In this document: one piece after another, positions 7,365-20,811 of the stretch | Numbering within the stretch: the first letter of the stretch is position 1 | Layout of the letters: each line of letters opens with the position of its first letter | Assembly (NCBI RefSeq): GCF_014897675.1 | Contig: NZ_JABUXU010000025.1 | Location: 1 to 39,472 of the forward strand | Length of the DNA: 39,472 nucleotides | DNA from: Advenella sp. FME57 | Lineage (GTDB): Bacteria; Pseudomonadota; Gammaproteobacteria; Burkholderiales; Burkholderiaceae_B | Direction of reading: 5' to 3' | The notes under the pieces: model-generated | What the model was told of the DNA's origin: nothing | The model's database searches: none | Seen by the model: only the letters and a program-made list of their open reading frames with translations | Translations under genes and position numbers: made by a program

Positions 7365-7388
7365 TTTTATATCATAATTTATGAGGGT

Positions 7389-7598
7389 GCCGGATTTGAT
7401 ACCGGCTACGAGCGGCCTATGTTTCCGCTAAGCTATGGGTTACAGAGGCATTCGCATGTTTTCCGGCTGCCAGCACACGTCGCTGCGTGTCTTTCCACGC
7501 CGACCCTCAGTCAAGCGCACTCCGCCGGTTCGGAATCGGCCCCTGCGACTATTCAGGGTGAGTGCGCTTGAATCAGGGTGCTGGCAACCGGCCAGCAC
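7389..7598 (+). other. Nested inverted-repeat structured element
   Basis: Simple hairpins at 7389-7406 (GCCGG/CCGGC) and 7411-7429 (AGCGG/CCGCT) are followed by a branched palindrome. Outer arms 7463-7476 and 7578-7591 pair at 13 of 14 positions. Inner arms 7504-7522 and 7560-7578 pair at 17 of 19, with 12 contiguous. The inner loop holds two more hairpins (7524-7540 and 7541-7558), and another sits in the left bulge (7475-7490). The right outer arm can instead form an 8-bp hairpin at 7578-7598. This could be a structured RNA, a cruciform-forming DNA site or a MITE-like element. No coding potential I trust. Confidence 0.6.
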
Positions 7599-7698
7599 GG
7601 CATTGCTGAAAGTAACAATCTTGTACACTAAACTAATGCAGCCGTTCGCTATCGGCCAAAAAGCAGATGCATTCAACTTTTCGTTTCTCTTTCTATTG

Positions 7699-8151
7699 AT
7701 GAATACAAGCGCAACAGCCTTTCAAATCCGCTCAGCGACCACTCAAGATGTGGATGCCATGTTCAAAATTAGGACATCAGTCCGAGAAAACTCGCTGACA
7801 TCAGAAGAGTTGTTCGAACTAGGTATTACTCCCGAGTTCATATCCGCTGCAATCAAGAATTCATCATGTGCATGGGTGGCAACCGTTGATAACGAGATCG
7901 TTGGTTTTTCGATGGTAGATCTGGATACAGCTTGTTTGTTTGCTGCGTTTGTGTTGCCGGAATATGAAGGACTTGGCATCGGTACAGACTTGATAAAAGC
8001 ATGTGAATCCGAACTTTTCATATACCATCCGGTAGCGTGGCTGGAGACAGCTCAGTTCAGTCGGGCTGCGAAGTTGTATCGCTATCTCGGCTGGGGCAAT
8101 GAGGCACAGATTGGCGAAGGGGATGTTAGGTTGGAGAAACATAGAAACTGA
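7699..8151 (+). CDS. GNAT-family N-acetyltransferase
   Basis: 150 residues. Beta-1 FQIRSATTQDVDAMFKIR, then motif A AAFVLPEYEGLGIGTDLI, whose loop GLGIG fits the R/Q-x-x-G-x-G/A acetyl-CoA pyrophosphate site, and a C-terminal strand region (AAKLYRYLGW). The fold transfers acetyl from acetyl-CoA to an amine; the substrate is unknown. The ATG at 7699 fits the usual GNAT N-terminus but has no clear ribosome site; an in-frame ATG at 7633 is possible. It runs against the leftward recombination transcript and follows the structured element, so it looks like inserted cargo. Confidence 0.8.
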   Translation: MNTSATAFQIRSATTQDVDAMFKIRTSVRENSLTSEELFELGITPEFISAAIKNSSCAWVATVDNEIVGFSMVDLDTACLFAAFVLPEYEGLGIGTDLIKACESELFIYHPVAWLETAQFSRAAKLYRYLGWGNEAQIGEGDVRLEKHRN

Positions 8152-8213
8152 CCGCTGTCGGACGATTACAGCCTTACGCAGCAGCCCACGCGAACTGATG
8201 TGGCGGCCACTGA

Positions 8214-8372
8214 TCATTTGACCGCCACGCCGCGTTTCGCCAGCCATTTCACAGCAGCGGAGCGTGACTTGAATTGCTTGGACTGACTGAAGGTTAGGGC
8301 AAGGTAGCCATTTTCATTCTGCACCAGGCCGCGTGATATCAGTTCGTTGTTGCCTTGATTGATCGTTTGCAT
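8214..8372 (-). CDS. 52-residue hypothetical phage protein
   Basis: A short gene. It begins MQTINQGNNELISRGLV and continues ALTFSQSKQFKSRSAAVKWLAKRG. The ISRG, LTxSQSxxFK and AAVKWLAKRG segments look like a conserved small early protein of betaproteobacterial prophages, which is recollection rather than a search result. Basic, probably a two-strand, one-helix fold. It is the first well-supported gene of the pL transcript, after boxA and a terminator. Ribosome site weak (AGTAGATAG). Confidence 0.6.
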   Translation of the reverse strand: MQTINQGNNELISRGLVQNENGYLALTFSQSKQFKSRSAAVKWLAKRGVAVK

Positions 8373-8389
8373 ATCTATCTACTGAAATA

Positions 8390-8426
8390 CATCTTTCAAC
8401 CGCCTCGTTAAAGCGGCTGAAAGATG
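8390..8426 (-). other. Strong hairpin in pL leader
   Basis: CATCTTTCA/TGAAAGATG (9 bp) with an inner CCGC/GCGG extension and a short loop, directly downstream of the terminator at 8429-8454 on the leftward transcript. The two hairpins together lie between pL and the 52-residue gene; they may form a processing or pausing structure. Confidence 0.5.
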
Positions 8427-8428
8427 TC

Positions 8429-8454
8429 AAAAGCCCCGAAGTAGTGGGGCTTTT
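8429..8454 (-). terminator. Rho-independent terminator (tL1-like, bidirectional)
   Basis: AAAAGCCCC/GGGGCTTTT with an 8-base loop makes a strong stem with A and U tracts on both strands. On the leftward mRNA it lies about 250 bases after pL and before the 52-residue gene, where lambda has tL1. It would cut the operon off unless antitermination occurs. Confidence 0.75.
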
Positions 8455-8485
8455 GCATTTCCCGGCGCTTCTCTCCGGGTCGTCA

Positions 8486-8572
8486 TCAAGCGGAATATTC
8501 GCGCGTTCCCTCGATTCTGCGCGCCTGGTTTCCCAGCTCCGGCCAATCGAAAGACGCAAGCCATTTGCGCAT
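8486..8572 (-). CDS. Possible 28-residue leader peptide
   Basis: ATG at 8572 with GAGGA three bases upstream; the product begins MRKWLASFDWPELGNQ and ends at TGA 8486. It lies between the pL boxA and the terminator. Nothing recognised. The ribosome site is the main reason to list it; it may be chance. Confidence 0.2.
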   Translation of the reverse strand: MRKWLASFDWPELGNQARRIEGTREYSA

Positions 8573-8680
8573 ACGTCCTCGCGTGGCAGGATTCCGCACC
8601 TTTTGCTTCAGCCGGCACGTAGTCGGGCTGGATACCCTCTTAACACCCAAAGCAGGGCGGGTATCTCTTTATCGGCCTGT

Positions 8681-8691
8681 TTGTTAAAGAA
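8681..8691 (-). promoter_or_regulatory. boxA-like antitermination site (nutL-like)
   Basis: On the leftward transcript TTCTTTAACAA begins about eight bases after the predicted pL start. It closely matches the rRNA-operon boxA (TGCTCTTTAACA), the NusB/NusE loading site, and the following ACAGGCCGATAAAG also resembles rRNA leaders. Hairpins GATACCC/GGGTATC and AGCC/GGCT follow. Position and sequence fit a phage nut site. Confidence 0.6.
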
Positions 8692-8704
8692 CTCTATGAT
8701 TGAA

Positions 8705-8750
8705 ATATTAACCGAAAGGTTAATTTCATGTCAATAACCGAAGGGTTAAT
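8705..8750 (-). promoter_or_regulatory. Leftward promoter pL with operators oL1 and oL2
   Basis: On the minus strand the -35 TTGACA (8734-8729), an 18-bp spacer and the -10 TAATAT (8710-8705) form a near-consensus promoter. A perfect operator ATTAACC-GAAA-GGTTAAT fills the spacer (8707-8724). A second, one base off, overlaps the -35 (8733-8750). Centres are 26 bp apart. The same operator type and layout recur at pR (19887-19929), so the phage repressor and Cro should control both. Confidence 0.85.
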
Positions 8751-8852
8751 TTTTGAGATAGAGAGTTGATGTGGATTAGTTTGAGGGACGGTAGCAGGTG
8801 CGTATTGCGAGAACTCCGTCGGCGTGGCCAGTAGGAATCACATCTCAGACGC

Positions 8853-8876
8853 AAAAAAGCCACATCAATGTGCGGC
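8853..8876 (-). terminator. Rho-independent terminator, leftward
   Basis: On the minus strand AGCCGCACA-TTGA-TGTGGCT with a small bulge is followed by six U. It shields pL from leftward transcripts of the accessory region. The rest of 8751-9067 contains no gene I can support. Confidence 0.5.
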
Positions 8877-9067
8877 TCAGGATTCGAAGTTTAGTAAATT
8901 GCAATGATTAGCAATAAAAAAGCATCCCTGGACATGAGGCTCTGTGAAGTGCTAAAAGTACCTGAGTATCACCAGCCAAGAGCTTTAAACACAACAAACG
9001 CTTCCTGAATGCGACAAAATGTGTAAAATAAGACAAAATAAATCATTAAAATATTCGGAACCCCATT

Positions 9068-9814
9068 ATGCGCATTACAAATGACATTCCGGCCACCATT
9101 GCTGGCTCAGCAATGGCTGGTTTCGGGTTTAGTCTTGGGCGAGATACTTATAAACGCACCAAGAAAGCCAGTAAAGACGGAGCATTCGCCTTATTTCTTA
9201 TTGGTATGGTGATTGTTGGGTTGATGCTGACTCAGTATTCTATGATGTGGTTCTTCCGGAATTATCAATCCTTTGTGGCCATGATACTTATGCGTGTTGT
9301 CGCTCTTATCAGTTACACCGCAGGAATTGCTATCAGCGGAATCTTCTTTTGGATGATCGGGTTTTGGATTGGAGAGTTGCTCTTTGACAAGCCGAACGGA
9401 TTTATTGAAATGCTATCTGGTCTTGCTGGACCAGCTTTTCAAGCTTCCGATCCACCGTCACAGTTCGCAACCATATTCGCATTCGGCATTCTGGTGTTTT
9501 TAACTGTTTCAGGTGTGATTACTGGAGTGAAACAGCGTGCAGCCCGTTTGAAAGCCTGGGCAGCAGAAGAGCATAATCGGCAGTTCATGAAAGAACACCA
9601 ATTATTTGAGACGAAGGAAGGCTACATTTCAGATCCAGAGGGAAACATATTCGAAGAAAAATTTCGGGATAGCGATTCTGTTATGTTTCTAGCCAAAGGC
9701 AGAAGAAACAAACGAGCCTTGCTTAAATTTGATGAGTCCGGCAAGTTTACTGTTTGGACAGGCATGTTGAGCATTGCTCCGCAAGGAAACAAACGCTTGT
9801 CCAACACTAGGTGA
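9068..9814 (+). CDS. Membrane protein, hypothetical
   Basis: 248 residues. Three hydrophobic segments near residues 38-57, 68-102 (possibly two helices with an IGFWIGELLF continuation) and 130-150, then a basic soluble C-terminal domain of about 95 residues (KEHQLFETKEGYISDPEGNIFEEKF). Family not recognised. First gene right of the left operator, reading away from pL, in a region that stays accessible in the lysogen; its own promoter is not obvious. A conversion or exclusion role is possible from position only. Confidence 0.6.
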   Translation: MRITNDIPATIAGSAMAGFGFSLGRDTYKRTKKASKDGAFALFLIGMVIVGLMLTQYSMMWFFRNYQSFVAMILMRVVALISYTAGIAISGIFFWMIGFWIGELLFDKPNGFIEMLSGLAGPAFQASDPPSQFATIFAFGILVFLTVSGVITGVKQRAARLKAWAAEEHNRQFMKEHQLFETKEGYISDPEGNIFEEKFRDSDSVMFLAKGRRNKRALLKFDESGKFTVWTGMLSIAPQGNKRLSNTR

Positions 9815-9946
9815 TAAAGGCTTCCTGGAGCGGGACACAGTGAGCAGTGGGATTTGCGTTCGTACTTGCCCCAATGATATTTATTTTTATGAAACTAAGA
9901 CATAATCAACGCGCTTACACAAGCATAGAATCAGGTCGAAACAACA

Positions 9947-10507
9947 ATGCAATTGAATTACAAAGGGATCATGATCTTATTCGTGATCATAGCGTGTGGG
10001 GTTGGTGGATACTTCGCGTATGACTATTGGGATAATCGAGTACCTAAACTCAATTCTTTTGATGGAATTAGCTTAGGGATGAGTGAGGTGGACGTCACGG
10101 TCTTGTACGGGAGGAGGCCAGATTGTCCGAGCAACGAAGGAAGTGCATCCAAAGAATTAAATTATTACGACTCTCCAGGATCCCGTCATTGGAGATCGTC
10201 AAGTTTGTTGAAGTCTCCGTGCAGGATATTTATTACTTTGACAAAAACTGCAGAGGGAGAAGCCCATGTGACCAGCATATGCTCGAATTCAGAACCGAGT
10301 GAGTTGTTCTCGAGCACATTCCGAAAGGGTGATCTTATTGAACGACTTGGAGCGCCATCATATCGCAGTATCAGCACGGACGGAACCCTAGTATATTCAA
10401 ATTATCCCGAGCATAATCTCGCCCTGATGACTGAAGGTCGGTACATTCGAGAATGGTGTGTTTCAGATTATTTGCCAATCAAATTTCAAGAAGAATACAA
10501 AGGCTGA
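9947..10507 (+). CDS. Membrane-anchored periplasmic protein with BamE-like motifs
   Basis: 186 residues. An N-terminal hydrophobic helix (about 8-26, ILFVIIACGVGGYFAYDYW) anchors a periplasmic domain with four cysteines. FDGISLGMSEVDVTVLYG and STFRKGDLIERLGAPSYRS each resemble the G-x-s-x-x-E/D-V-x-x-x-L/Y-G turn of SmpA/BamE-type folds, suggesting two such repeats. Function unknown. Same strand as the preceding membrane gene, 132 bases downstream. Confidence 0.5.
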   Translation: MQLNYKGIMILFVIIACGVGGYFAYDYWDNRVPKLNSFDGISLGMSEVDVTVLYGRRPDCPSNEGSASKELNYYDSPGSRHWRSSSLLKSPCRIFITLTKTAEGEAHVTSICSNSEPSELFSSTFRKGDLIERLGAPSYRSISTDGTLVYSNYPEHNLALMTEGRYIREWCVSDYLPIKFQEEYKG

Positions 10508-10566
10508 TGAGTATACAAACTCTATTAACAAACCCGCCAGAGCGTGCAGGGCATAGCCTACATTAT

Positions 10567-10755
10567 TCATTGTGCGATTAAGTGATAGATAAAAACGGCT
10601 ACTGCAGTCGCGGAAAATATGAGTAGCGCTGTCCAAAAGAAAGTCGCTCCAATAGTGGAAATCGCGCGAATAAAACGTGGTCGTGATTTGTCGGTCGCAA
10701 CATTGAACAGCGAGACGGCAGCGTCGACTACAGTAACTAAGGTATCGATATTCAT
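10567..10755 (-). CDS. Small membrane protein, hypothetical
   Basis: 62 residues from the ATG at 10755, chosen because AGGAG lies five bases upstream; the open frame runs to 10896 but has no start signal there. An N-terminal amphipathic segment (DTLVTVVDAAVSLFNVA), a basic middle and one C-terminal hydrophobic helix (about 40-60). Reminiscent in size of small phage membrane regulators; no family recognised. Confidence 0.55.
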   Translation of the reverse strand: MNIDTLVTVVDAAVSLFNVATDKSRPRFIRAISTIGATFFWTALLIFSATAVAVFIYHLIAQ

Positions 10756-10864
10756 AACATCTCCTAAAAAAATAATAAACGAGCTTTTAGGATATCCTGT
10801 GTTTTCTTGAACGTACCTACGTGGATGAACCCATTTTGGGGTAATACACTCAAATTTTTGGTCT

Positions 10865-10888
10865 AAAAGTTTCGCCGGCGAAACTTTT
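10865..10888. repeat. Perfect 24-bp palindrome
   Basis: Two 12-base arms, AAAAGTTTCGCC and its complement, meet without a spacer. As RNA it makes a 10-bp stem with loop CCGG and A/U ends on both strands, so it could be a bidirectional terminator. As DNA it could be a dimer-binding operator. It lies between two leftward small genes. Confidence 0.6.
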
Positions 10889-10922
10889 GCCAGCAAGTTG
10901 CACGGGGAGGTGGGTACGGAAC

Positions 10923-10944
10923 AAAAAAACCGCCCGAAGGCGGT
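10923..10944 (-). terminator. Rho-independent terminator, leftward
   Basis: On the minus strand ACCGCC-TTCG-GGCGGT is followed by seven U: a classic strong terminator with a UUCG tetraloop. It ends the 36-residue gene at 10967-11077. Confidence 0.8.
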
Positions 10945-10966
10945 CCGCTCTAGTGGAGATCAAGTC

Positions 10967-11077
10967 CTATTTGCTAGGATATGATCTGCAGTGTTCGCAT
11001 ACATACTCAAGTTTGCCGCGGCGAAACCGAGTGTATGGTGACATGGGTACTGCCTTCGGCAATTTACACTGAACCAT
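10967..11077 (-). CDS. 36-residue Cys-containing peptide
   Basis: A short gene with AGGAG six bases before the ATG at 11077 and a strong terminator just after its stop. It begins MVQCKLPKAVPMSPYTRF and ends YVCEHCRSYPSK. CxxC plus an upstream Cys could hold a metal. Another ATG in a second frame lies too close to the ribosome site to be used. Unknown function; the SD-ORF-terminator arrangement is the argument for a real gene. Confidence 0.45.
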   Translation of the reverse strand: MVQCKLPKAVPMSPYTRFRRGKLEYVCEHCRSYPSK

Positions 11078-11127
11078 TTCATTCTCCTAAAAGAAGAAAT
11101 TAGGAACAGTTCGCGTGTTACAACATA

Positions 11128-11706
11128 CTAATGACCCAAATTTTTGGTTACTTCTTCTCTTATTGTTTCTTCGAATGATTCCCAGTGGAAAAGAATCGCG
11201 GCAAGTACCCCAGCAAGAATCACTTGGTGTCCCTGTTCCATTTCGTCGAAGTGAGTTTGCCCATAGCGAATAGCCGCGGCCACACGACCAGCAGCTGCGT
11301 CCAATAAATCCTTGTCTCCCTCAATGCGAAAGCCCCCTTGCTCAAGAGTAGCGAGGTAATCACTTGATGCAAGACGGCTGCCTGATTCATTTATCCAAGT
11401 ATTTCCTTGTTTCTTGATTTTCCAGTTCAAGCTTTGTTGCACATGTTCTGCTAGTCGATCCTCGGAATCGTGGTATTTTTTTGGTGGAATGGTTTGAGAG
11501 AGCTTGTCAATCAAATGATTAAATAGCCAGGCGAAAGAGTCCTCCTCATCTTCATACCGCCCTGTTTCTGTGGAAACGTAGGGATCCCAGTTTCCTCGTA
11601 TGTGCGAGAGTGGCCTCAAAACTTCATGTTCGAGAAAATCACTTGCAGAGAAAAAAAGCTGAATTTCAGGATTCATATTTATCAATATTTGCGCAGTCGA
11701 ATGCAT
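11128..11706 (-). CDS. Hypothetical protein
   Basis: 192 residues, or 182 from the second ATG; neither start has a ribosome site. Acidic and mixed alpha/beta. A segment near residues 75-130 (DRLAEHVQQSLNWKIKKQGNTWINESG) looks like a compact domain, and the end is a long helix (LAAILFHWESFEETIREEV). No recognised family. A hairpin GCCCTGT/ACAGGGGC (11843-11860) sits in the 176-base gap before the nuclease-like gene. Confidence 0.5.
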   Translation of the reverse strand: MHSTAQILINMNPEIQLFFSASDFLEHEVLRPLSHIRGNWDPYVSTETGRYEDEEDSFAWLFNHLIDKLSQTIPPKKYHDSEDRLAEHVQQSLNWKIKKQGNTWINESGSRLASSDYLATLEQGGFRIEGDKDLLDAAAGRVAAAIRYGQTHFDEMEQGHQVILAGVLAAILFHWESFEETIREEVTKNLGH

Positions 11707-11882
11707 TGTATATCGGTAAGCAGCTGTGTCAATGTGGGTTTACCGGACGCATACTGTAAATGGGCAAATATGCGGATAGACCAAGGCTAGAGTCCCGACG
11801 TTCTAAGGAACAGCAACAACGACTAAATAACTAATACTCCCGGCCCTGTCTTACAGGGGCAAGTCCATCACATCTTTGACGG

Positions 11883-12404
11883 TTATTTCAATGCAAGTTG
11901 CTCTGAGAACAACTTCCAGTTGTTTTCGTATGGTTCCAAATTACTTGCGTAGTATCTATTGTCCAGCGATCTAAAGTTTCGCGGGCGACGCCAGTCATGT
12001 TTAGATATAAACTCTCGGTAATTATCTGCACAAATATTTTGCAAATCACTTTTCTTCAATATGAAGAACCTATCTCTTTGATCCGTATCAGGCATTGCAA
12101 GCAATACGCAAACGTATATTAAATCTGGATTTGGTATTGCATAGTTTCCGCCATCGATTTGACACTTATTCTCTTCATCAATTTCGATATTAATCCATAG
12201 GCTTGCGGATGTTGGCCAGCTAATGCCGCGGGACGTTTTGACTTGGACGGGAAGTGTTTTGAGTGAATTGTTAGCTACGATAAGGTCAAACTCAGGTACA
12301 TTGCCGGTGAATGAAGTGGCAATGAATCCTCGTCTTCCCAATTCGGCACAAACCAGAAATTCCCCAACTTGCCCAGCTAGTTTGTTGTAGAGACCTTTAC
12401 TCAC
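11883..12404 (-). CDS. PD-(D/E)XK nuclease-like protein
   Basis: 173 residues from a GTG start with AGGGAT about six bases upstream. The N-terminus has the restriction-enzyme-like fold: E15 in GQVGEFLVCAELGRRG, D40 in VPEFDLIV and Q54-x-K56 in LPVQVKTSRG, as in Holliday-junction-resolvase-like and PDDEXK_5-type proteins. It would be a Mg2+-dependent DNA (or RNA) nuclease. It lies downstream of an ATPase gene on the same strand, 163 bases apart with a terminator-like hairpin between. Possible defence effector; stand-alone archival nuclease also possible. Confidence 0.7.
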   Translation of the reverse strand: MSKGLYNKLAGQVGEFLVCAELGRRGFIATSFTGNVPEFDLIVANNSLKTLPVQVKTSRGISWPTSASLWINIEIDEENKCQIDGGNYAIPNPDLIYVCVLLAMPDTDQRDRFFILKKSDLQNICADNYREFISKHDWRRPRNFRSLDNRYYASNLEPYENNWKLFSEQLALK

Positions 12405-12515
12405 TCTGAATCCCTATTTTTGGTTGTCTGCAGACCGTTAGTTTAACTCTGAATAGGTAATTATTTTTATTCAAATGCTCAACTTCGCCAAAGGCTAGGT
12501 CGAAATGGTCAAAAT

Positions 12516-12533
12516 GAAACCCGCCGGAGCGGG
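12516..12533 (-). terminator. Hairpin, possible leftward terminator
   Basis: CCCGC-CGGA-GCGGG; on the minus strand it is followed by UUUCAUUUU, a weak U tract. It lies after the ATPase gene and before the nuclease gene. Confidence 0.45.
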
Positions 12534-12567
12534 GGATTTGGCATTATCGGATAAATCCTGTGATGCA

Positions 12568-13887
12568 TCAAGTTTCAAGTGGATTTGGAATATCGTCCAA
12601 TATTTCTTCTTTATCGCAGTTTTTTAGAAAAAAATAAAGTGTTGAATCTATTATTTTAAGCTTCTTCGCACCGCGATCATAATCTACAAAAGGAGGTTGT
12701 ATTTGTTTACTCAATTGGTGTTGAGTGATGCCATGAAGAAAAGCACCTAGATCTCCGGACCTAACGTCTTCAGCACGATGATGATTTTCTCTGATCTTAT
12801 CCAATAACTCGGCTCGTGACAGCCCTTGCTCAATATTTCTAAAATCGGCAGTCAATAGTACCTTGATTAAATAATATGGGAACGCTAAAGATAACTCTCC
12901 GCTTTGATTGCTTTTTTTTCGTGCAATTGTGGCAAACGATTCGAAACTTCGGATATGGCGCGTAGCGTAGTCATCTGTTTTCTTTTTAATCGCGCACTCT
13001 AAGTTATCATGTGTGATATATATTTTTTTCGGCGATGTCGAGAACACATCTGCTTCAAAGCAGCAATGCTTGCAAATCTCTTGAATCACTCCAATGCTAT
13101 CAAATGAATTGCTTATCAACTCATCTTGCACATGCGAAAAATCAACATTGAGCGCTTCGCTACCTTTATTAATTACCTTTTTAAAATCGTCAACTGTCCA
13201 AGGCTCAACCGGAATTTCAGTAATTCTATCCACTAAATCACCGTTATACTGAACTAAGCGATTCGCTTCTCTCCATATGCCCAATATGATAAAAATAATG
13301 CCTTGATCTTGAAATACTCGAAGATCGTACGCAAGAGCTTTCTGTGTTTCTTGTGATAGATAGTGGAAATTTTCCAGCACTAAATATTTTCTCTTCTCTT
13401 TCGAAGGCTCTTGAGCCTTCAGAATCTCGGTAATGTCTTGTGCAAGAGCTAAATTATATTCAACGTTTCGGATTGTTTCGGATGCCGATTTTTCGTCTGA
13501 ACTTTTGCCGCCTGCATCAAATCCTATTTCTGCAATAACCGGTATCTTGATTTTAACTCCTGCAGTTCCGTTAACTTCGCCTTGAGAGCGTGTCCCAGTT
13601 GTTTCAAATTCAACGAATTGCACTCCGAGTTGTCGTAATATTGATTTGTATATATCTATACAGGTTGAAGGAGGGGCGCACTCGACCTTGATATATTCAG
13701 ATTCGTCCAGATTTTTCAATAGTAGGGATGTTTTGCCTTGCTTGGACGAGCCATAAATAATAACTTGATTGCCATCCTCAATTGCACTTTGAAATGCCAA
13801 ATCCACTCGCTCCCTTTCAATATAGGATTGGATGATCTTGCTTTTAACTCCAAAAACGTCCGTGGTATCGTAGTTCTGTTGTGACAT
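12568..13887 (-). CDS. AAA/STAND-like P-loop ATPase
   Basis: 439 residues. Walker A GSSKQGKT at 46-53. Walker B KYLVLENFHYL at about 167-177, with Glu-Asn in place of the usual Asp-Asp/Glu. A sensor-like strand IIFIILGIWREANRL lies near 197-212. The C-terminal 130 residues look like a winged-helix unit (LSRAELLDKIRENHHRAEDVRSG). The arrangement fits ORC/STAND-type ATPases found as single-gene phage exclusion or ABC-three-like defence components. Neighbouring PD-(D/E)XK gene is a candidate effector. Notably AT-rich relative to the late genes, suggesting separate acquisition. Confidence 0.75.
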   Translation of the reverse strand: MSQQNYDTTDVFGVKSKIIQSYIERERVDLAFQSAIEDGNQVIIYGSSKQGKTSLLLKNLDESEYIKVECAPPSTCIDIYKSILRQLGVQFVEFETTGTRSQGEVNGTAGVKIKIPVIAEIGFDAGGKSSDEKSASETIRNVEYNLALAQDITEILKAQEPSKEKRKYLVLENFHYLSQETQKALAYDLRVFQDQGIIFIILGIWREANRLVQYNGDLVDRITEIPVEPWTVDDFKKVINKGSEALNVDFSHVQDELISNSFDSIGVIQEICKHCCFEADVFSTSPKKIYITHDNLECAIKKKTDDYATRHIRSFESFATIARKKSNQSGELSLAFPYYLIKVLLTADFRNIEQGLSRAELLDKIRENHHRAEDVRSGDLGAFLHGITQHQLSKQIQPPFVDYDRGAKKLKIIDSTLYFFLKNCDKEEILDDIPNPLET

Positions 13888-14037
13888 GTAAATTTCTATA
13901 AATAAATGATAAAATTAAAGAGTGCCAAGAGTACCGTTTTGTGTTGTCTAAATTAGGGACAATTGCAACTCAAACGTCATGCTTGGCATTTTTTTGTCTT
14001 GCATTTTAAATTTCCTTTTCCCCGCCTCTAAGAGGGA

Positions 14038-14370
14038 TTATTTCGGATTTGACAACCGCCTGCTATCTAAGGTTTTATATTCGACAGGTTCATTTAACGG
14101 CTTGACGGCCGTCGGTGAACCATTCGAACGCGCCCATCCACGCGATCCCATGCATGAATTCATAGCAGCATGAAATCGATCTTTAGCGTACGCAGAGTCA
14201 ACTTTACCGACGATTATGTGTGTTTGATTCAAACAATAGTTCATCGAATTTATATAGGCATCAGACACTTCCCCCTTTATGTACCAAGAGGGTTGCACCG
14301 TCGATGTCACAGCGCATCCCGTGAGAAGTGCAGCGATGACAATGAGTATAATTTTATTTGTGTTATTCAT
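14038..14370 (-). CDS. Lipoprotein, hypothetical
   Basis: 110 residues. Signal peptide with lipobox LLTGC (Cys19). The mature part has two cysteines (MNYCLNQTH, NSCMGSRGW) that could form a disulphide, resembling small Cys-containing outer-membrane lipoproteins. AGGATAGG precedes the ATG. Leftmost member of the leftward envelope-gene cluster at 14.0-18.3 kb. A 9-bp hairpin (14444-14466) lies upstream. Confidence 0.75.
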   Translation of the reverse strand: MNNTNKIILIVIAALLTGCAVTSTVQPSWYIKGEVSDAYINSMNYCLNQTHIIVGKVDSAYAKDRFHAAMNSCMGSRGWARSNGSPTAVKPLNEPVEYKTLDSRRLSNPK

Positions 14371-14501
14371 CCTATCCTCGAATTTTTGGGGACTTCAAAA
14401 TTCAGTAAATCTGGCTGACCAGGGAACGAACCCCTTTAGTCTTTTATGCAGCCTATAGCTGCATAACACCACCGGATCAGTCTTAATCCCATTCTTGATG
14501 C

Positions 14502-15629
14502 TCAGTAGGTTTTCGTATTTTCATAAAAATTGCTAATCGTACCGGGAGAACACTGCACTGTTGTAAGCAATTTGTTGTTTTGAATCACCCTAACTCCACC
14601 CTCACGATAAGTGTCATTTCTATCCTGCTCGTAATAGACCTGATAAGAGGTGTTAGTATTTGGTACTGAAATTGAACTCGTGATTGTTCGGCTGGACGCA
14701 TCCCACGGCACGTAAGTAACCTGCTGCCTGTCTCTCGTAAGCTTCATTTGTAGCTTTGATGGAGGCCCAAACCGATATGTCACCGTAGAAGGTGATGCAC
14801 AGATACTGATGATTTTTGCATTGACCGTTGAACACATGAATAACTCTTTCTCACCAACTGAACACACTGAGTTTGCAGATACCGTAAAATTCTCAGCTGA
14901 TGGACTGAGGCTAGCCTGAGACTTTGTACCGGAAAATGCTTTTTCCATTTCATTTAAAAAGATTATCCGATCCTTTTCCTCTTTCTGCATACATGCGTCA
15001 TAGAGGAACTCCGGAATAGATGTGCAAGTCTGTTCTCGCTTTTTCCACCACTGTTGCTGATCCGCTTTGAGCGTGGATGCTTTATCGCCCATTGCTATTA
15101 GGGCTTTGTTATAAGCACGGGAAAATTCGGCAGAAACTCGTGGTTGAGATTTAAATTTGAGTTCTTTCTCTGTAGGCGATGTTGCATTTCCTGTCACTCT
15201 AGGCACTAGCCCATCAACAGTTGCTCCTTTACATACGAAGCTTGCAATTGTTTCTCCTACAGTTCCCGGTACCGTGTCGGCCCAACCTGAATTTAATTTG
15301 GCCGAATCTAGAACAGAGCCCATTCCATTAATTGCCGAATATTGGACCGATGTCGTTATTTGGTTTCGGTCGAAGCGGCAATCTATATCGAATTTCACCT
15401 TTGCCGATTTGACCAGTTTTCTGGACTGTAGATCAAGGTCAGGAGACAAATGGTTCATCAAAATCCAGAGACTCATTACGTTAGGTATGACAGGATGGTT
15501 TTTCACGGAATCAAGGTCAATATACAGATCACTTTCTTCTGATAAACTTATCAAGTCCCAATTTACCGCATGGGCCGCGCCTGACATCGATATCGTTGTG
15601 AACATCAAAAATTGCAAAAACTTTTTCAT
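14502..15629 (-). CDS. Secreted protein, Adhesin_E-like plus LprI-like domains
   Basis: 375 residues from the ATG at 15629 (GAGGT eight bases upstream); a start five codons earlier lacks a signal. Signal peptide to about AAHA. Residues about 22-130 (WDLISLSEESDLYIDLDSV) resemble the surface-adhesin E domain. Residues about 170-235 (LKADQQQWWKKREQTC, then YDACMQKEEKDRI) fit the LprI lysozyme-inhibitor motif. The last 110 residues are a beta-rich unknown domain with Cys pairs. Periplasmic or surface exposed. The combination suggests lysogenic conversion of the host envelope. Confidence 0.65.
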   Translation of the reverse strand: MKKFLQFLMFTTISMSGAAHAVNWDLISLSEESDLYIDLDSVKNHPVIPNVMSLWILMNHLSPDLDLQSRKLVKSAKVKFDIDCRFDRNQITTSVQYSAINGMGSVLDSAKLNSGWADTVPGTVGETIASFVCKGATVDGLVPRVTGNATSPTEKELKFKSQPRVSAEFSRAYNKALIAMGDKASTLKADQQQWWKKREQTCTSIPEFLYDACMQKEEKDRIIFLNEMEKAFSGTKSQASLSPSAENFTVSANSVCSVGEKELFMCSTVNAKIISICASPSTVTYRFGPPSKLQMKLTRDRQQVTYVPWDASSRTITSSISVPNTNTSYQVYYEQDRNDTYREGGVRVIQNNKLLTTVQCSPGTISNFYENTKTY

Positions 15630-15690
15630 ATGTCTCGACCTCATCTCAAATGCTATCTAACCCTGAAGCTTCCGCGATAATTTGTCCATT

Positions 15691-16158
15691 TCATTTCGCT
15701 TGAAACCACAGCACCAAAACTAGCAAAACCAAAGACCCAACGATCATCCAAGGCGGTGGCCCATTCTTCAATTTAGGCGTAATGATGTTTCCTTTTTCAT
15801 CACGGACTACAAGTTCTGACGTGGCTACATCCTTTTTCGTCGGGCCGTCGCGCCAGGAATCATAAAAATCCTCAGATGATTTTGTAGCGCGATCACTGAT
15901 GCTTTTGAGCTTGGCCTCTTTTTGATGATTATCATATTTTTCCAATAAAAGCTTTTTCTCATGCCTAGATAACTGCGCCGGCATTCCGGCCACAGCAATT
16001 AGAGCAATAACTGGAAACAACAGTCCACCAAGAAACCACATTAGCGGGTTCAAATTCTTTGCATTGGCTACGGTAGAGCAGAATACGGCACCCGCGAACC
16101 AGGCCAGAAAAGTCCACAGCGCGAAAAAACTTCCAAATAAAGCAATCATTGTTGCCAT
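15691..16158 (-). CDS. Membrane protein, hypothetical
   Basis: 155 residues, AGAGGA six bases before the ATG. Two N-terminal hydrophobic segments (about 3-30 and 38-58), a charged cytoplasmic middle of about 75 residues (SRHEKKLLLEKYDNHQKEAK) and a C-terminal helix (about 137-153). No family recognised. Member of the leftward envelope cluster. Confidence 0.6.
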   Translation of the reverse strand: MATMIALFGSFFALWTFLAWFAGAVFCSTVANAKNLNPLMWFLGGLLFPVIALIAVAGMPAQLSRHEKKLLLEKYDNHQKEAKLKSISDRATKSSEDFYDSWRDGPTKKDVATSELVVRDEKGNIITPKLKNGPPPWMIVGSLVLLVLVLWFQAK

Positions 16159-16258
16159 TTTTTATCCTCTACATTGGCCCTAAACACTCGTTGATCGTAT
16201 CGACGGTTCCCCGGTCTCCAATACGGGGTTTTCTGAAACGAGTTTCGTTGTATAGAGC

Positions 16259-16702
16259 TCACTTAGCCATGGGACTGGGGTCAGAATTTGTGCGAAGGTT
16301 GTAACCTAAGTTCTCTCCCACCACATAGCGTCTGAAGCTGAGCACAAACCCTTCAAGTGGAGGGATGCAGCCAAACATATTGCCGCATGCACCTTGGAGC
16401 GTAATTAGCGCTCCTCCGTTGCCATTCGGCAGTTTTGTGATTGTAAAAGCGAAGTTGGGCTGTCCATTAATCGGCCCATACGTTGAAATAACGGTGTCGG
16501 TCGCTGACTGAACCCTATATGACGAATTATTCACCAACCAAATCTGAGCCTTTTGCCAATACAGGTCACATTCAGCCTTCGTTGAGCATGCAATTGGCGT
16601 TTGGGCCTCGGCCATTTCTTGCGGGGTCAATTTGGGAGGTGCGGCGCAAGCAGCCAGCGTCAGAAATATACCAGCGCTTAAAACCTTTAGTATCCGTGCC
16701 AT
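16259..16702 (-). CDS. Lipoprotein, hypothetical
   Basis: 147 residues from the ATG at 16702; the open frame runs to 16879 but only this start gives a signal peptide with a lipobox (TLAAC). The mature part has paired cysteines (PIACSTKAEC; GACGNMFGC) and beta-strand pattern, WLVNNSSYRVQSATDTVI. Similar in feel to small proteobacterial lipoproteins that test cell-envelope integrity; function unknown. Confidence 0.7.
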   Translation of the reverse strand: MARILKVLSAGIFLTLAACAAPPKLTPQEMAEAQTPIACSTKAECDLYWQKAQIWLVNNSSYRVQSATDTVISTYGPINGQPNFAFTITKLPNGNGGALITLQGACGNMFGCIPPLEGFVLSFRRYVVGENLGYNLRTNSDPSPMAK

Positions 16703-16731
16703 TTCTCTACCTTTGATTCTTGTTGATAAGA

Positions 16732-17226
16732 TTATTTGCAGGCCTGATTCCAGACTTTTCGAAACTCCGATCCTTTCAGGCTTTCGCCTTCTATCGCCAC
16801 CAGATCCTTTGATACTGCGACATACCGTCGGTAGCCGGTAAAGCCACCGAAACCATTTTTGGCGTTCACTTCGCCGCAAACCCCACGCTGATTACGATAC
16901 GTGGCGCTCTCTGGGTCCTTTAAAGCAGATTCTACGAATCCTTGAGCAAATACCCGCATCTTGATTTCAGTCAATTGAGGATCAGGCTTAGCGGGTATCT
17001 CTGGCGCAGCTGCAGCTGATGAATCCGACGTCTCGTCTTTCTTTCCACCAGAAAAGATTAGAAATGCAACAGCAATCGCGCCAATCAACACATAATTCTT
17101 TTTTGTGTTTTTGTCCGCTTGCTTTTTTGCCTCCAGGGCCATCGAAAGCGGCGCGCCACACGATGGACAAGCGGCGGCCTTATCGCTGAATTTTTTCTTG
17201 CATTCTGGGCATTTCAATAGTGCCAT
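16732..17226 (-). CDS. Zinc-ribbon, single-pass membrane protein
   Basis: 164 residues. N-terminal zinc ribbon CPEC-x10-CPSCG (6-24), one transmembrane helix (about 45-60, VLIGAIAVAFLIF), then a periplasmic domain (about 90-164) with FVESALKDPESATYRN, CGEVNAKNGFGGFTGYRRYVA and a final Cys. The latter domain recurs in many proteobacterial envelope proteins of unknown role. The ribbon would sit in the cytoplasm. Same cluster and strand as its neighbours. Confidence 0.7.
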   Translation of the reverse strand: MALLKCPECKKKFSDKAAACPSCGAPLSMALEAKKQADKNTKKNYVLIGAIAVAFLIFSGGKKDETSDSSAAAAPEIPAKPDPQLTEIKMRVFAQGFVESALKDPESATYRNQRGVCGEVNAKNGFGGFTGYRRYVAVSKDLVAIEGESLKGSEFRKVWNQACK

Positions 17227-17267
17227 GGCGGTATTCCGTAAATCAGATTGTGAGTTTGGCTGTTAAG

Positions 17268-17888
17268 TTATAGCGATCCGATACACGTATTGATCGTGTC
17301 GGCCGTTTTTTTCAGTCCATCAAGCACGCGCGTTGGAGATGCGCCGCTCCAACTACCGACTTTGTAGAAGCCCTGGTTTGCCATCTGACCGGTATCCTCT
17401 GATGCTCGCTCCAGATTGCTGAATGCCATAGTTGTGCCAGCAGTACTTCGCTTTGCAGTCAGCCGAAATGCCACTGCATCTTTGTTCGGGGCAAGAATGA
17501 CGCCCGTGTCGTGGGTATTCGTGCCTTGCGCTACAACGGTATTGCGATCGTCCGACACATAGCTGATAACGCTACCACCACCAACAGTTTCCGAATTTCC
17601 AGTATTCCAATAGGTGCCACCTAAAAATCCAGAGTTTTGATTCCCTCGCAAGGTCACGGCTTTATTCTGTACGTTCTGAGCAATGCAGACCGGAAGCACA
17701 TCTTTGCCGGCCTTACTGGCGCCTGGGTAGTCGTATGTCACGCCTTCAATATATTCATAGCCCCATTTCTCGTTGGTCGCATATTTGACGCTCTGATATT
17801 GCGCCAGCTCTGGCGTACGTGTCCGAGTAGCACAACCGGCCAGCAGAACAACAGTAGCCAAAACAATATATTTCGCTGTCCTATTCAT
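17268..17888 (-). CDS. Lipoprotein, hypothetical
   Basis: 206 residues with lipobox LLAGC (Cys19) and GGGGG upstream of the ATG. The mature part is glycine- and threonine-rich, beta-predicted, with one Cys pair (PVCIAQN; INTCIGSL). No family recognised. It lies 11 bases downstream of the BamE-like lipoprotein, so the two form one transcript. Confidence 0.7.
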   Translation of the reverse strand: MNRTAKYIVLATVVLLAGCATRTRTPELAQYQSVKYATNEKWGYEYIEGVTYDYPGASKAGKDVLPVCIAQNVQNKAVTLRGNQNSGFLGGTYWNTGNSETVGGGSVISYVSDDRNTVVAQGTNTHDTGVILAPNKDAVAFRLTAKRSTAGTTMAFSNLERASEDTGQMANQGFYKVGSWSGASPTRVLDGLKKTADTINTCIGSL

Positions 17889-17899
17889 GGGTAGCCCCC

Positions 17900-18313
17900 T
17901 TATTTACGTGGTTGATTCTGTACAGGCTCAATCGGCCCGGCCGCTCGACCCATGCCAGTACCCATGTCACTTTGCGATGTGCTGTATTCCACCAGTCTGT
18001 CATTCGCGTCAAAACGAAACATAGCGCTGCTGGTATGGATGTCAGATCCGCCAGCGAAGATGCCGACAATCGGAATAAAGGTAGCGGGCCTAGTGCGGTA
18101 TTCAGCGAAGTTATAAAAAACTGTGGCTGTTCCGTCAGAATTGCGCATCTGAGTCGTGGGTTTGCCAAATTTGGAAAGAACTTCAGTTCTGGATGTCTGA
18201 CCTTTTACTAACTGACCGAGTTGGTCTTCTGACACCTTCACGCCAGATGCAGCGCACCCAATTAAAAATACCGCCACTGTAGATAAAAAGACACATTTAA
18301 TTGCGTTAATCAT
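17900..18313 (-). CDS. BamE/SmpA-like lipoprotein
   Basis: 137 residues; lipobox FLIGC (Cys20). VSEDQLGQLVKGQTSRTEVLSKFGKPTT is the hallmark of the SmpA/OmlA fold: a G-x-T-x-x-E-V-x-x-x-F/L-G-x-P turn. TATVFYNFAEY and SAMFRFDANDRLVEY continue it. In E. coli BamE is a BAM-complex lipoprotein; phage and plasmid homologues are of unknown role. First gene of the leftward envelope run; its upstream region has the shared motif described at 18470. Confidence 0.75.
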   Translation of the reverse strand: MINAIKCVFLSTVAVFLIGCAASGVKVSEDQLGQLVKGQTSRTEVLSKFGKPTTQMRNSDGTATVFYNFAEYRTRPATFIPIVGIFAGGSDIHTSSAMFRFDANDRLVEYSTSQSDMGTGMGRAAGPIEPVQNQPRK

Positions 18314-18449
18314 TTATTGTTACTTTTCCCTTGAACTTTTCAAGCATTCGAAGACGACAATCCCGATTTTTTATTGCCAATATCGGATTTTCTGCTGTTT
18401 TGCCGAGTGAATAGCAGCACGCCGCTAGTTTTGTTGGAATACTAACATT

Positions 18450-18496
18450 TATTCAACCTAAATTATTTTTTGTTACGTTTGGGTTGAATTTATTCA
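18450..18496 (-). promoter_or_regulatory. Repeat-rich control region of envelope cluster
   Basis: TTTGTTACGTTT (18470-18481) recurs exactly at 19338-19349 upstream of the double-repressor gene. Around it are three ATTCAA-type half sites: TTATTCAACC (18450), GGTTGAAT (18483) and TTATTCAAAC (18491). The 229-base gap 18314-18542 otherwise holds no gene. Likely promoter and operator of the envelope genes. Confidence 0.4.
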
Positions 18497-18542
18497 AACA
18501 ATTCGTAGATCATGTTGTCTATTTGCCTAAGTATATGCAATT

Positions 18543-19277
18543 TTAGCCGCAGATTTTCTGCGGTACTTTACTCACGTTGCGACTCGCCACGTCTAAACCT
18601 AGATCCTTGGCAGCGAGTAAAACAGTGGTCTCTAACTGAATGCGCTGACGCTCCGAAAGCTTTAGAACCTTTTCATACGAAAGGTCTTGGAATGGCCAGA
18701 TGTTAAAGTCATCCGGAATCCGCTTATCGCCATCCATGTGATCGGTGTCCATCCACCCAGCTGGTTTGTTGCATTTTCGCTCGATGTACCGGCAACTGTT
18801 GGGCCGCATCCCGCGAGGTTTCCCGGTCCCAGAGTTTTTAGCACCGTGCAGCCATTGGCTCACTTGAGACTGCTTCCGTTCCAACAGTTCCGCGAGCTTA
18901 CCCACGCCGCCAAACTCGGAAGCGAGTATCTGCATATTATTTCTCCTGGATTCTTCAATAGTCGATAATTTGATAATCCCTTCAAAAGGCCGGCTATCAA
19001 ATGGGAATCTACCAGTTTGGTTCTTTGCCACTAAATGCTTTTCATGGTGATCGGTGTCCATCCAGCCGTGAGGTTTTTGCATACCTTTTTCCAGCTTTCT
19101 TGCTAGCCGGTTGCCAACATTGCGTATTTTTCCCGTAGATGGGTCTGGACGCATGTTCTTTAACTGATTCAAATAGATGTGTGAGACGCTACAAATCCTT
19201 CCAAGACGTTCCTGGGTGACTGCTTCTTCGAGTAGACGTAGCAGGTTCTCATGTCGTACGGTATATATGTCTTTCAT
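18543..19277 (-). CDS. Tandem-duplicated repressor-like HTH protein
   Basis: 244 residues built of two homologous repressor-type units. Unit 1 is about 7-79 (HENLLRLLEE to KPHGWMDTDHHE). Unit 2 is about 112-182 (NNMQILASEFGG, VSQWLHGAKNSG to KPAGWMDTDHMD). GWMDTDH is identical in both, at 71-77 and 174-180. The C-terminus (WPFQDLSYEKVLKLSERQRIQL) is the linker and helix usually seen once in short repressors lacking a peptidase domain, and the CI gene next door has the same tail. Probably binds DNA as a pseudo-dimer. It may be a fusion of two former genes. Role, immunity or control of accessory genes, is unknown. Confidence 0.8.
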   Translation of the reverse strand: MKDIYTVRHENLLRLLEEAVTQERLGRICSVSHIYLNQLKNMRPDPSTGKIRNVGNRLARKLEKGMQKPHGWMDTDHHEKHLVAKNQTGRFPFDSRPFEGIIKLSTIEESRRNNMQILASEFGGVGKLAELLERKQSQVSQWLHGAKNSGTGKPRGMRPNSCRYIERKCNKPAGWMDTDHMDGDKRIPDDFNIWPFQDLSYEKVLKLSERQRIQLETTVLLAAKDLGLDVASRNVSKVPQKICG

Positions 19278-19337
19278 GGCGAACTACAACTAGACTATCG
19301 CTTTACTCCGATGAAAATTAGAAAACATAAATCAATA

Positions 19338-19349
19338 TTTGTTACGTTT
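19338..19349 (-). promoter_or_regulatory. Shared 12-bp upstream motif
   Basis: TTTGTTACGTTT, identical to 18470-18481, lies about 60 bases upstream of the double-repressor start. Similarity continues on the minus strand: AAACGTAACAAA, then six bases, then ATTTA at both sites. Candidate binding site for autoregulation. Confidence 0.4.
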
Positions 19350-19384
19350 CGTCTAAATTTTCTTTAAATACTCCATAGCAGACC

Positions 19385-19852
19385 TTACCTACCCAATACG
19401 CGTCGTTTCGATACCCCTTTGCTACTGGCTGCGGGTTTCAGTTTGCGTGCCTTGAGTTCAAGAATGGCTTCGACTTCACTTTGGTCATCTGACGATAGCC
19501 GTTTGTACTGATCAAATGTTATTGATTTGAACGGCCAAGCGACGAGCGATTCATTGGCATCTTTTTTTTCGTTGGAGACGACAATTCGAGCTTTGCCATC
19601 AGCTCGATTCAAACTGAATAAAGCTGGTTCAGCGTCCAAGTCGTACTTTTCGAGCTTCTCCCATTCTTCTATCTTGCGTGCGCTTTCCTCATTTATACCA
19701 CGCTTGTCCTTTACATTTTCTCCGGACAGCCAACGGCTGATTGCTGGTGCTTTCATATTCCAGGCGGAGGCGCAAGCCGCTTTATTGCCACCATATCGCT
19801 TCTCGATAATGGTGAGTAGGTTAGCTCTGCGGTTGGTTTTAATGATATCCAT
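19385..19852 (-). CDS. Short CI-type phage repressor
   Basis: 155 residues. N-terminal HTH (about 8-48: ANLLTIIEKRYGGNKAACASAWNMKAP then ISRWLSGEN), a link, then WPFKSITFDQYKRLSSDDQSEVEAIL. There is no S24 autoprotease domain, so RecA-stimulated self-cleavage is not expected; induction must act otherwise, for example through an antirepressor. It is divergent from cro across the operator region. A promoter (-35 TTTACT, -10 TTTAAT) would start the mRNA at or beside the ATG, giving a leaderless message as for lambda cI from PRM. Confidence 0.85.
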   Translation of the reverse strand: MDIIKTNRRANLLTIIEKRYGGNKAACASAWNMKAPAISRWLSGENVKDKRGINEESARKIEEWEKLEKYDLDAEPALFSLNRADGKARIVVSNEKKDANESLVAWPFKSITFDQYKRLSSDDQSEVEAILELKARKLKPAASSKGVSKRRVLGR

Positions 19853-19858
19853 ACGGTT

Positions 19859-19931
19859 ATTAAATCGCCTGTCTAACGATAAGTAAATTCCCCGTTAGGT
19901 TATTGAAAGAAATTAACCGAGAGGTTAATAT
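19859..19931. promoter_or_regulatory. Right operator region: pRM, pR, oR1, oR2
   Basis: Rightward pR: TTGAAA (19903-19908), 17 bp, TAATAT (19926-19931). Its spacer and -10 hold the perfect operator ATTAACC-GAGA-GGTTAAT (19912-19929). Leftward pRM: TTTACT (complement of 19882-19887), 17 bp, TTTAAT (complement of 19859-19864). A degenerate operator (19887-19904; 11 of 14 arm positions) overlaps the pR -35 and is centred about 43 bp upstream of the pRM start, the spacing at which lambda CI on OR2 activates PRM. Layout matches pL at 8705-8750. Confidence 0.8.
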
Positions 19932-19938
19932 ATGTGTT

Positions 19939-20184
19939 ATGAATACTTTCAAACATTTCTGGCTTTCAATGCCCGTGCCTCAGAGACGAGTGTTTGCAAG
20001 TGCTTGTGGCACGTCATATGCATATTTAAACAACTTTGCACACGGTCAAAAGAAACGAATCGGCGAGAACCTTTGCATCAATATCGAGCGTGAGAGCGGC
20101 GGAAAAGTTGTATGCGAACAACTCCGCCCCGATGTGGACTGGGCCGTTTTGCGCCGGTCGGCGGAGGAGGGCGGTGATGCCTAA
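19939..20184 (+). CDS. Cro-like (YdaS-type) regulator
   Basis: 81 residues from the ATG at 19939. A HTH of the YdaS/Cro type: RRVFASACGTSYAYLNNFAHGQKKRIGENLCINIER, followed by the typical tail VVCEQLRPDVDWAVLRR. It would bind the ATTAACC operators and shut off repressor synthesis after induction. The pR start predicted near 19938 leaves no leader, so translation would be leaderless or begin at the second Met (19969). An overlapping ATG at 19932 is in another frame. Confidence 0.85.
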   Translation: MNTFKHFWLSMPVPQRRVFASACGTSYAYLNNFAHGQKKRIGENLCINIERESGGKVVCEQLRPDVDWAVLRRSAEEGGDA

Positions 20185-20313
20185 CTCTGGGCCAACAGTT
20201 TCAATCGATCTTTTTCTCATCATTTCAAATCAAGCGTTTAAGACGGAACCATTGTGGCACCGCTGCGGTCGTGTTGCATCCCTGATTTGGAGCGCAATTC
20301 AAGGAAGAACATC

Positions 20314-20535
20314 ATGACTTGTCGATATTCCGGCACAGTCTGGTACGACATCCTCTATACCAGTGTGCGTAAAACACCCGGTGGCGTAAATGACGCAGCC
20401 CGATTCTTGACAGAGCGCCGTGGCAAAACAATTCATCCTGAGACGCTTCGAGCGAAGCTGCGGCATATTGATGGGGAATCGATTTCCCTTGAGATGGTGG
20501 AACTGCTGACCGAATGGATGGAAGAAAAGGCCTAG
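20314..20535 (+). CDS. CII-family regulator, N-terminal half (ends at in-frame TAG)
   Basis: 73 residues; AGGAAG eight bases upstream of the ATG. TVWYDILYTSVRKTPGGVNDAARFLTERRG then HPETLRAKLRHIDGESISLEMVELLTEWM is the HTH half of the phage regulatory CII family, which governs the lysis-lysogeny choice. The frame continues without shift past TAG (20533-20535) into the family's usual C-terminal helical half (to 20811). Family members are usually about 160-170 residues, which the joined frame of 165 residues matches. Either the gene carries an amber mutation, the TAG is suppressed, or the short form suffices. Confidence 0.75.
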   Translation: MTCRYSGTVWYDILYTSVRKTPGGVNDAARFLTERRGKTIHPETLRAKLRHIDGESISLEMVELLTEWMEEKA

Positions 20536-20544
20536 AACCATCGG

Positions 20545-20811
20545 TTGGACTGGCTTCATACTTTAAACGCCCAGTTCGGACTGGCGGCATCTTCCATGTG
20601 CTCAGACGGCTTTGCTCAAGATCTGCAGTCGTCGTTTATCTCAAAGACAGCAGCTTTTGGTGAACTGGCGACAACCATTTCGGTTTCATTGTCAGACGGC
20701 AAAATTTGCCCGCGTGAGGCCGAAAACATTATTTCCGCTGCCCGCAAGAGTCAGCGGAGTAGCCAGAAGATCATTGCCGCCACCAAAAGGGCGTTGATGG
20801 AGAGTTCGTAG
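20545..20811 (+). pseudogene. CII-family regulator, C-terminal half after amber codon
   Basis: In the same frame as the preceding CII gene, three codons after its TAG. WLHTLNAQFGLAASSM and FGELATTISVSLSDGKICPREAENIISAARKS correspond to the oligomerising helical part of CII-family proteins (the S/A-DG-x-I-x-x-x-E pattern). There is no ribosome site for independent translation; a TTG at 20545 or ATG at 20596 would be needed. Most simply the remnant of one full-length gene, 20314-20811, split by TAG. Confidence 0.65.

Follow-up and report, generated by a model that had tools for sequence, protein, structure and literature searches.

The window examined here is the whole 39,472-nucleotide contig NZ_JABUXU010000025.1 of Advenella sp. 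FME57, and in it very probably lies the control region that governs a lambdoid prophage in this Bordetella-related bacterium. A cI-like repressor, R1, is predicted to silence two opposed early promoters, PL and PR, through left and right operators (OL and OR), with a niche for cargo genes between OL and OR and with release of the repressor probably occurring without RecA cleavage. R1 would bind the palindrome ATTAACC-N4-GGTTAAT at both promoters and silence two operons, one for recombination running leftward and one for cro, cII and replication running rightward, and Cro would occupy the same sites during lytic growth. The cargo genes could be expressed in the lysogen, since neither silenced operon includes the DNA between OL and OR, and the slot that holds them would have grown to 11.2 kb in this prophage. 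No account of the region was found among the matches listed in a literature search; as most subscription journals lie outside the scope of that search, absence from print is not claimed. We regard the window as a piece of a contig, since its ends do not overlap and no open reading frame (ORF) of more than 60 codons spans them when they are joined.

Probable paired operators at two opposed early promoters

Four copies of the palindrome, which a preliminary description of this DNA had placed at 8707–8724, 8733–8750, 19887–19904 and 19912–19929, are indeed present, with 0, 1, 3 and 0 mismatches, respectively. On the left, PL (8705–8734, minus strand) consists of TTGACA at 8734–8729 and TAATAT at 8710–8705, 18 bp apart; the exact operator OL1 (8707–8724) lies within its spacer and extends 4 bp into the −10 hexamer, and OL2 (8733–8750), which has the single mismatch, is found 26 bp from OL1 and overlaps the −35 hexamer by 2 bp. 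On the right, PR (19903–19931, plus strand) is built of TTGAAA at 19903–19908 and TAATAT at 19926–19931, separated by 17 bp, with the exact operator OR1 (19912–19929) in the spacer, reaching 4 bp into the −10, and OR2 (19887–19904), which has three mismatches, 25 bp from OR1 and overlapping the −35 by 2 bp. The plan proposed earlier for the two promoters, one operator in the spacer and one over the −35, is the same on both sides and holds for OL1 and OR1, but OL2 and OR2 reach the −35 by just these 2 bp. The presence of one operator sequence at the leftward and the rightward early promoters agrees with the arrangement in phage lambda.

When the window was shuffled 300 times by a first-order Markov model, the exact 18-bp pattern never arose, and a site with at most one mismatch arose once in total. 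Scanning the 4,738,585 bases of the genome at the same tolerance returned just three sites, OL1, OL2 and OR1, and none for the backward control pattern. The scan for further ATTAACC sites that had been proposed earlier therefore finds no equal sites elsewhere in the 4.74-Mb genome, and the operators are private to the prophage. Looser patterns are unconvincing alone: four sites in the window match with up to three mismatches, a number reached by 9/100 shuffles, and the half site ATTAACC occurs eight times, as in 10/100 shuffles. Promoter-like sites in general are not above shuffles in the region 6900–20600 (18 against a shuffle mean of 23.9), so the predicted promoters rest on the operators and on the relatives, not on the hexamers.

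CI-type loci (numbered with the prefix L) were gathered from the family of the host, from phages and from viral contigs. Six phage records were fetched and four used (L045–L048, the place of cI in the unannotated L045 being guessed), and the viral-contig scan kept 80/148 relatives. The viral loci fetched numbered 162, of which 160 were entered (L138 and L147 were left out because the flank on one side was too short), 134 had enough flank and 104 were non-redundant. Palindromes from about 420 bp upstream of cI to 30 bp inside it were compared with palindromes beyond cI, the palindromes of other loci serving as controls. Matching distal operators were found in 10/25 loci of the first round, the window included, against 25/600 cross-controls; matching operators flank cI in 29/104 non-redundant viral loci against 242/10,712 cross-controls, and the later genome loci gave 2/8 against 1/56. 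These cross-controls are conservative, since they include loci with shared operator types. Three of the 29 matches (L096, L230 and L231), GC-rich and away from the cI start, were excluded from the later geometry; L067, below threshold in the first round (score 10), was kept later, and its distal site was not found again by the later pattern scan. The duplicates L160/L057, L163/L058 and L075/L237 are included in the geometry, recombination-gene, lipoprotein and promoter counts and excluded from the width and cargo tests.

The geometry recurs in these loci. A second OL site is found in 25/36 relatives, at a distance of 25–26 bp in 12 of them, 34–35 bp in eight, 20–23 bp in three and 43–48 bp in two, and the best −35 for PL reads TTGAC in 25/37 loci including the window. 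At OR, three sites pass the threshold in four of the 36 (L069, L162, L167 and L225); others have a pair separated by 46–51 bp, which could reflect decay of a middle site. Genes of recombination type (RecT, exonuclease VIII, phrog_3657-like, RdgC, SSB and ParB) were found in 16/36 relatives (13 without duplicates), always beyond OL, and the same panel gave nothing in the remaining 20. As read from their sequences, the relatives follow the lambda plan, with operators that differ in sequence and are of several types.

Both early transcripts have features that may be common to the group. Among 36 loci examined, three identical pairs included, 33 have a PR by the promoter rule, and in 32 of these (L203 being the exception) the −10 is followed 6–8 nt later by ATG or GTG; a leaderless cro mRNA is therefore predicted as a trait of this phage group. 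In the window the cro ATG lies 7 nt past the PR −10 (19926–19941), so that its mRNA is probably leaderless, a departure from lambda. For the immB region of the telomere phage PY54, leaderless cro and cI mRNAs are described from rapid amplification of cDNA ends (PMC4488713); the likeness concerns cro, for which the window offers a prediction only, and the repressors and operators differ.

The leftward transcript would begin with a structured non-coding leader (8373–8698, minus strand), the fold of 8372–8699 having a z of −4.93, with 0/100 shuffles as low. About 6 nt past the predicted PL start, it contains the sequence GTTCTTTAACAA (8681–8692, minus strand), which resembles a boxA of the ribosomal type. 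Such a site occurs within 300 nt past PL in 11/35 loci (the window, L062, L068, L069, L072, L075, L124, L192, L235, L237 and L238, L075 and L237 being one locus) against about 0.5 expected from the same strand; two mismatches were allowed and 0–1 seen. No boxA was found near cro on the PR side of the window, and no N gene was identified in the window. Nus-dependent antitermination without an N gene is possible in the PL leader. In several relatives a stem precedes boxA, and its arms appear by eye to covary. An Rfam scan of the window returned nothing at gathering scores. Among seven relatives scanned, Burkholderiales-2 RNA (RF02917) was found at L072:7179-7252, L237:11274-11348 and L124:8602-8676, always on the strand opposite to PL, within the first 330 nt past OL1 in L072 and L237 and further along in L124. 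Other Rfam RNAs in related prophages were RT-15 and Proteo-phage-1 (L237:14754-14953; L069:10324-10400).

Two repressor-like genes beside the right operator

R1 (19385–19852, minus strand) is a protein of 155 amino acids, here called cI-like by its position, its length, a weak match to CI-type DNA-binding domains (independent E-value (i-E) 4.5e-05) and a match to the Rep repressor of Salmonella phage SPC32H (PDB chain 5d50; E-value 3.6e-15 over profile positions 1–79). The latter is a match of sequence profiles only and covers the DNA-binding part of Rep, leaving its C-terminal tetramerisation part unmatched. Rep is described as controlled by an antirepressor (PMC9638917, PMC9986798), whereas the window proteins searched included no recognised Ant gene. 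No S24 peptidase domain was recognised in either repressor-like protein of the window, R1 belonging to no Pfam family and R2 (see below) giving a weak YdaS match only. In alignment with the long repressors of L075 and L072, R1 matches their first part and ends ahead of their C-terminal part, which by eye is S24. Judged by length, repressors without S24 are also found in L057, L061, L062, L064, L070 and Burkholderia phage KS9, whose gp41 is, according to phage records, a CI-type repressor as short as R1 (133 amino acids). A review describes inactivation of the KS9 repressor gene as yielding an obligately lytic phage. The DNA-binding motif of KS9 differs from that in the window, and its distal operator candidate is weak (score 8, reached by 3/24 controls). 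Because no self-cleaving domain was recognised, R1 would probably be released by an antirepressor or by dilution, and induction of the prophage without RecA cleavage is likely.

The second gene, R2 (18543–19277, minus strand), encodes a protein of 244 amino acids in which a CI-type DNA-binding domain occurs twice in tandem (i-E 1.3e-30 and 1.2e-24); two such domains are otherwise seen in just one L196 protein among 146 CI-domain proteins in 198 loci. The L196 protein, a tandem protein of a second kind, is located at L196:6570 (plus strand) in a viral contig, and an L196-like architecture is also seen at L253:9830 (plus strand) in Ottowia sp. oral taxon 894.

The far better domain scores of R2, and its place in the same leftward gene string as R1, suggest that R2 rather than R1, or the two jointly, might bind the ATTAACC sites. 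Several observations make this very unlikely. R1 is the gene that adjoins OR, and the R1-like repressors of L075, L235, L237 and L238 are paired with TATTACC-N5-GGTAATA operators, whose half site is the nearer to ATTAACC. The second head of R2 carries SQVSQW, and all 13 located loci with this motif, (S/A)-Q-x-SQW (11 without identical pairs), have TTAGC-type operators, which are not above chance in the window. This last argument calls for caution, as TTAGC operators also go with other motifs (L067, L068, L225 and L227) and no operator can be clearly assigned to the first head of R2.

R1 being preferred as the repressor of PL and PR, R2 may have another function, for which we offer only a doubtful suggestion: it could be a two-headed repressor carried as cargo that silences incoming phages of other immunity and so gives the lysogen heteroimmunity. 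The suggestion is drawn from the motif of its second head, which goes with TTAGC operators, in a prophage without such operators above chance. A copy of TAAGCGATTCGCTTC with one mismatch at 13255 lies within the ATPase gene described below and is attributed to chance. The pattern TTAAGCGA-N-TCGCTTAA, with up to two mismatches, has no match in the rest of the genome and one in the reversed control, and ATTAGC-N5-GCTAAT occurs genome-wide with at most one mismatch at three places, against six in the reversed control. Its sole exact copy (C17:138490) is also considered a chance match, being inside an ORF of 417 amino acids that by eye encodes a transporter substrate-binding protein. If the suggestion were true, the targets would be phages like the ones carried by Bordetella genomosp. 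12 and Eoetvoesiella, and R2 would be another product of a lipoprotein-rich cargo niche.

Cargo between the operators

The interval between OL and OR spans 11.2 kb, and the start of cI is 11.1 kb from OL1; both the 11-kb width and the accessory gene content given in the preliminary description hold. In phage lambda the order is OL-rexBA-cI-OR-cro and the interval is about 2.4–2.5 kb. Among 33 non-redundant relatives, the cI start lies 0.8–5.7 kb from OL1 (median 1.7 kb), and wider intervals may have been missed, since the distal search reached about 10 kb from cI in viral loci and 14 kb in family loci.

Besides R1 and R2, the interval contains twelve cargo genes in both orientations. On the plus strand, 9068–9814 encodes by eye a membrane protein that matches no family, and the product of 9947–10507, with no assignment, has one membrane segment by eye. 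The remaining ten are on the minus strand. Neither 11128–11706, which matches no family, nor 11883–12404, with a weak phrog_5018 match, has an assignment. They are followed by an AAA ATPase (12568–13887) that matches the PADLOC candidate defence model PDC-S59 (E-value 4.4e-74), of which the literature search found no mention. Next come a lipoprotein predicted by the lipoprotein-signal rule (14038–14370) and a protein with domain matches to Adhesin_E and LprI-like parts (14502–15644). The last five are a small membrane protein by eye (15691–16158), a predicted lipoprotein of phrog_16082 (16259–16702), a zinc-ribbon protein (16732–17226) and two further predicted lipoproteins (17268–17888 and 17900–18313).

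These last five recur in the corresponding place of other prophages. When the twelve cargo proteins were searched by tblastn against the 33 relatives, five gave one match each, in L088, L093, L094, L090 and L072, respectively, and 5/5 fell within OL–cI intervals, which make up 11.8% of the 613 kb searched (binomial p 2.3e-5); by blastp, the small membrane protein also has a homologue in the interval of L067. Predicted lipoproteins are likewise concentrated there, with 10/88 interval ORFs against 5/914 others; seven of the 88 are duplicates from identical loci, with no lipoproteins among them. Across all 104 viral loci, lipoprotein signals were found in 36/566 ORFs in the 3 kb after cI and in 17/2,066 elsewhere, and the 3 kb after cI of loci without a detected OL gave 25/413. 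The ORF calls followed a greedy longest-first rule, and loci related to one another do not count as independent. To the interval set the window adds its own four predicted lipoproteins. The slot between OL and cI thus appears to be a recurring cargo niche in this phage group, occupied by genes for small lipoproteins and membrane proteins and by candidates for defence.

A simpler account would be that the 11-kb interval is a mere insertion that has split a compact region, with neither the slot nor the distance having a role. The interval is AT-rich (GC in 1-kb bins is 0.38–0.50 over 9–19 kb; right of 20 kb it is 0.475–0.571 in 18/19 bins and 0.403 in one), and its genes run in both orientations, as an insertion would predict. 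However, OL sits directly on the promoter ahead of the recombination operon, as in the relatives with intervals of 0.8–5.7 kb. The niche reading also has cargo inserted between OL and OR, so that the two accounts part only over selection for the slot, which the insertion account denies. The recurrence of cargo argues against that denial, and we regard the insertion account as unlikely.

From their placement and by analogy with known phage lipoproteins, the cargo lipoproteins may act in superinfection exclusion. The Ltp lipoproteins of Streptococcus thermophilus phages are reported as surface proteins with such a role (PMC3952083). Both sets are phage-encoded, but the Ltp hosts are Gram-positive, and the two are likened by description. 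Defence genes in prophages are also on record: rexAB lies downstream of cI in lambda and RexABpp just downstream of a CI-like gene in prophages (PMC12894663), and Gifsy prophages are described as carrying defence genes (PMC12724215). These are prophage-borne cargo like the candidates here; the genes differ, and the role of the cargo in the window is predicted.

Gene order and condition of the prophage

Outside the interval, the genes follow the lambda order in both directions. The first ORF under PL (8214–8372, minus strand; 52 amino acids), read from the sequence, has no assignment, and a GNAT acetyltransferase-like gene (7435–8151, plus strand) is oriented against the left operon. They are followed on the minus strand by a gene that matches no family (6888–7337), a YqaJ/RecE-like exonuclease (5333–6220) and a phrog_3657 protein (4229–5326), whose function is unassigned in its family and which is taken as an annealing partner because of its position only. 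The exonuclease provides the recombination gene expected under PL in lambda, the annealing protein being a presumed one. Rightward of OR, on the plus strand, are a cro-like gene (19939–20184; phrog_35, YdaS), a cII-like gene (20254–20811) in two adjacent ORFs (20254–20535 and 20545–20811) matching successive parts of phrog_101, a replication initiation protein (21376–22308) and a RusA-like resolvase (22641–23471), the last two by family match. With cI leftward and cro rightward of OR, then cII and replication genes, the order is that of lambda. Terminase, portal and tail genes, including the tape measure, lie further rightward.

Like lambda, the region has the same operators at both of its opposed early promoters, with cI and cro between or beside them, accessory genes downstream of cI and recombination genes under PL. 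It differs in its interval width, in having two operators per side instead of three, in a repressor without a recognised peptidase domain, in the additional two-headed repressor-like protein, in its probably leaderless cro mRNA, in the boxA-like site past PL and in the lack of a recognised N. Of the lambda-type immunity region proposed in the preliminary description, the matching OL and OR, the gene order, the exclusivity of the sites in the genome and the shared plan of the relatives stand, and the three operators per side and the self-cleaving repressor domain do not. The second repressor-like gene, the recurrence of cargo and the boxA-like site go beyond what had been described.

Several points weigh against a working lambdoid switch governed by R1. 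No clear third operator (OR3) was found at OR, the next-best site, at 19844, having four mismatches and lying within the cI-like gene, and OR2 is degenerate. R1 has no PHROG or Pfam match and no close relatives in the phages, viral contigs or genome contigs, with just weak partial matches in eight other genomes of the family. The window proteins searched, a subset of the ORFs, included no recognised antirepressor, and the prophage may exceed the contig. No matching distal operator was seen in 75/104 viral loci and 15/25 first-round loci, numbers bound to the threshold and to a crude search ending 10–14 kb from cI. A promoter of at least 8/12 by a simple rule was present at 28/37 PL and 22/36 PR, that is, not at all of them, and the survey counts are not fully independent, as some relatives share ancestry. 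The prophage may also be decaying, because the cII-like gene is split and a transposase-like gene (1772–2812; phrog_157) lies near the left contig end. Together with the degenerate OR2 and with the failure to recognise a phage integrase among the window proteins searched, this could mean that the prophage has become defunct and that its switch has ceased to work. We consider this somewhat unlikely: operators and promoters are present, and the frames of cro, R1, the replication initiator, terminase, portal and tape measure are open, a sample that does not cover every late gene, and the contig ends may hide an integrase.

Prophages of this group that share the two-sided plan, with OL and cI 0.8–11 kb apart, form a natural series for asking whether stable lysogeny needs repressor looping. 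The OL–cI slot also seems a predictable site at which exclusion lipoproteins and new defence genes may be sought in prophages of the Burkholderiales and similar prophages.

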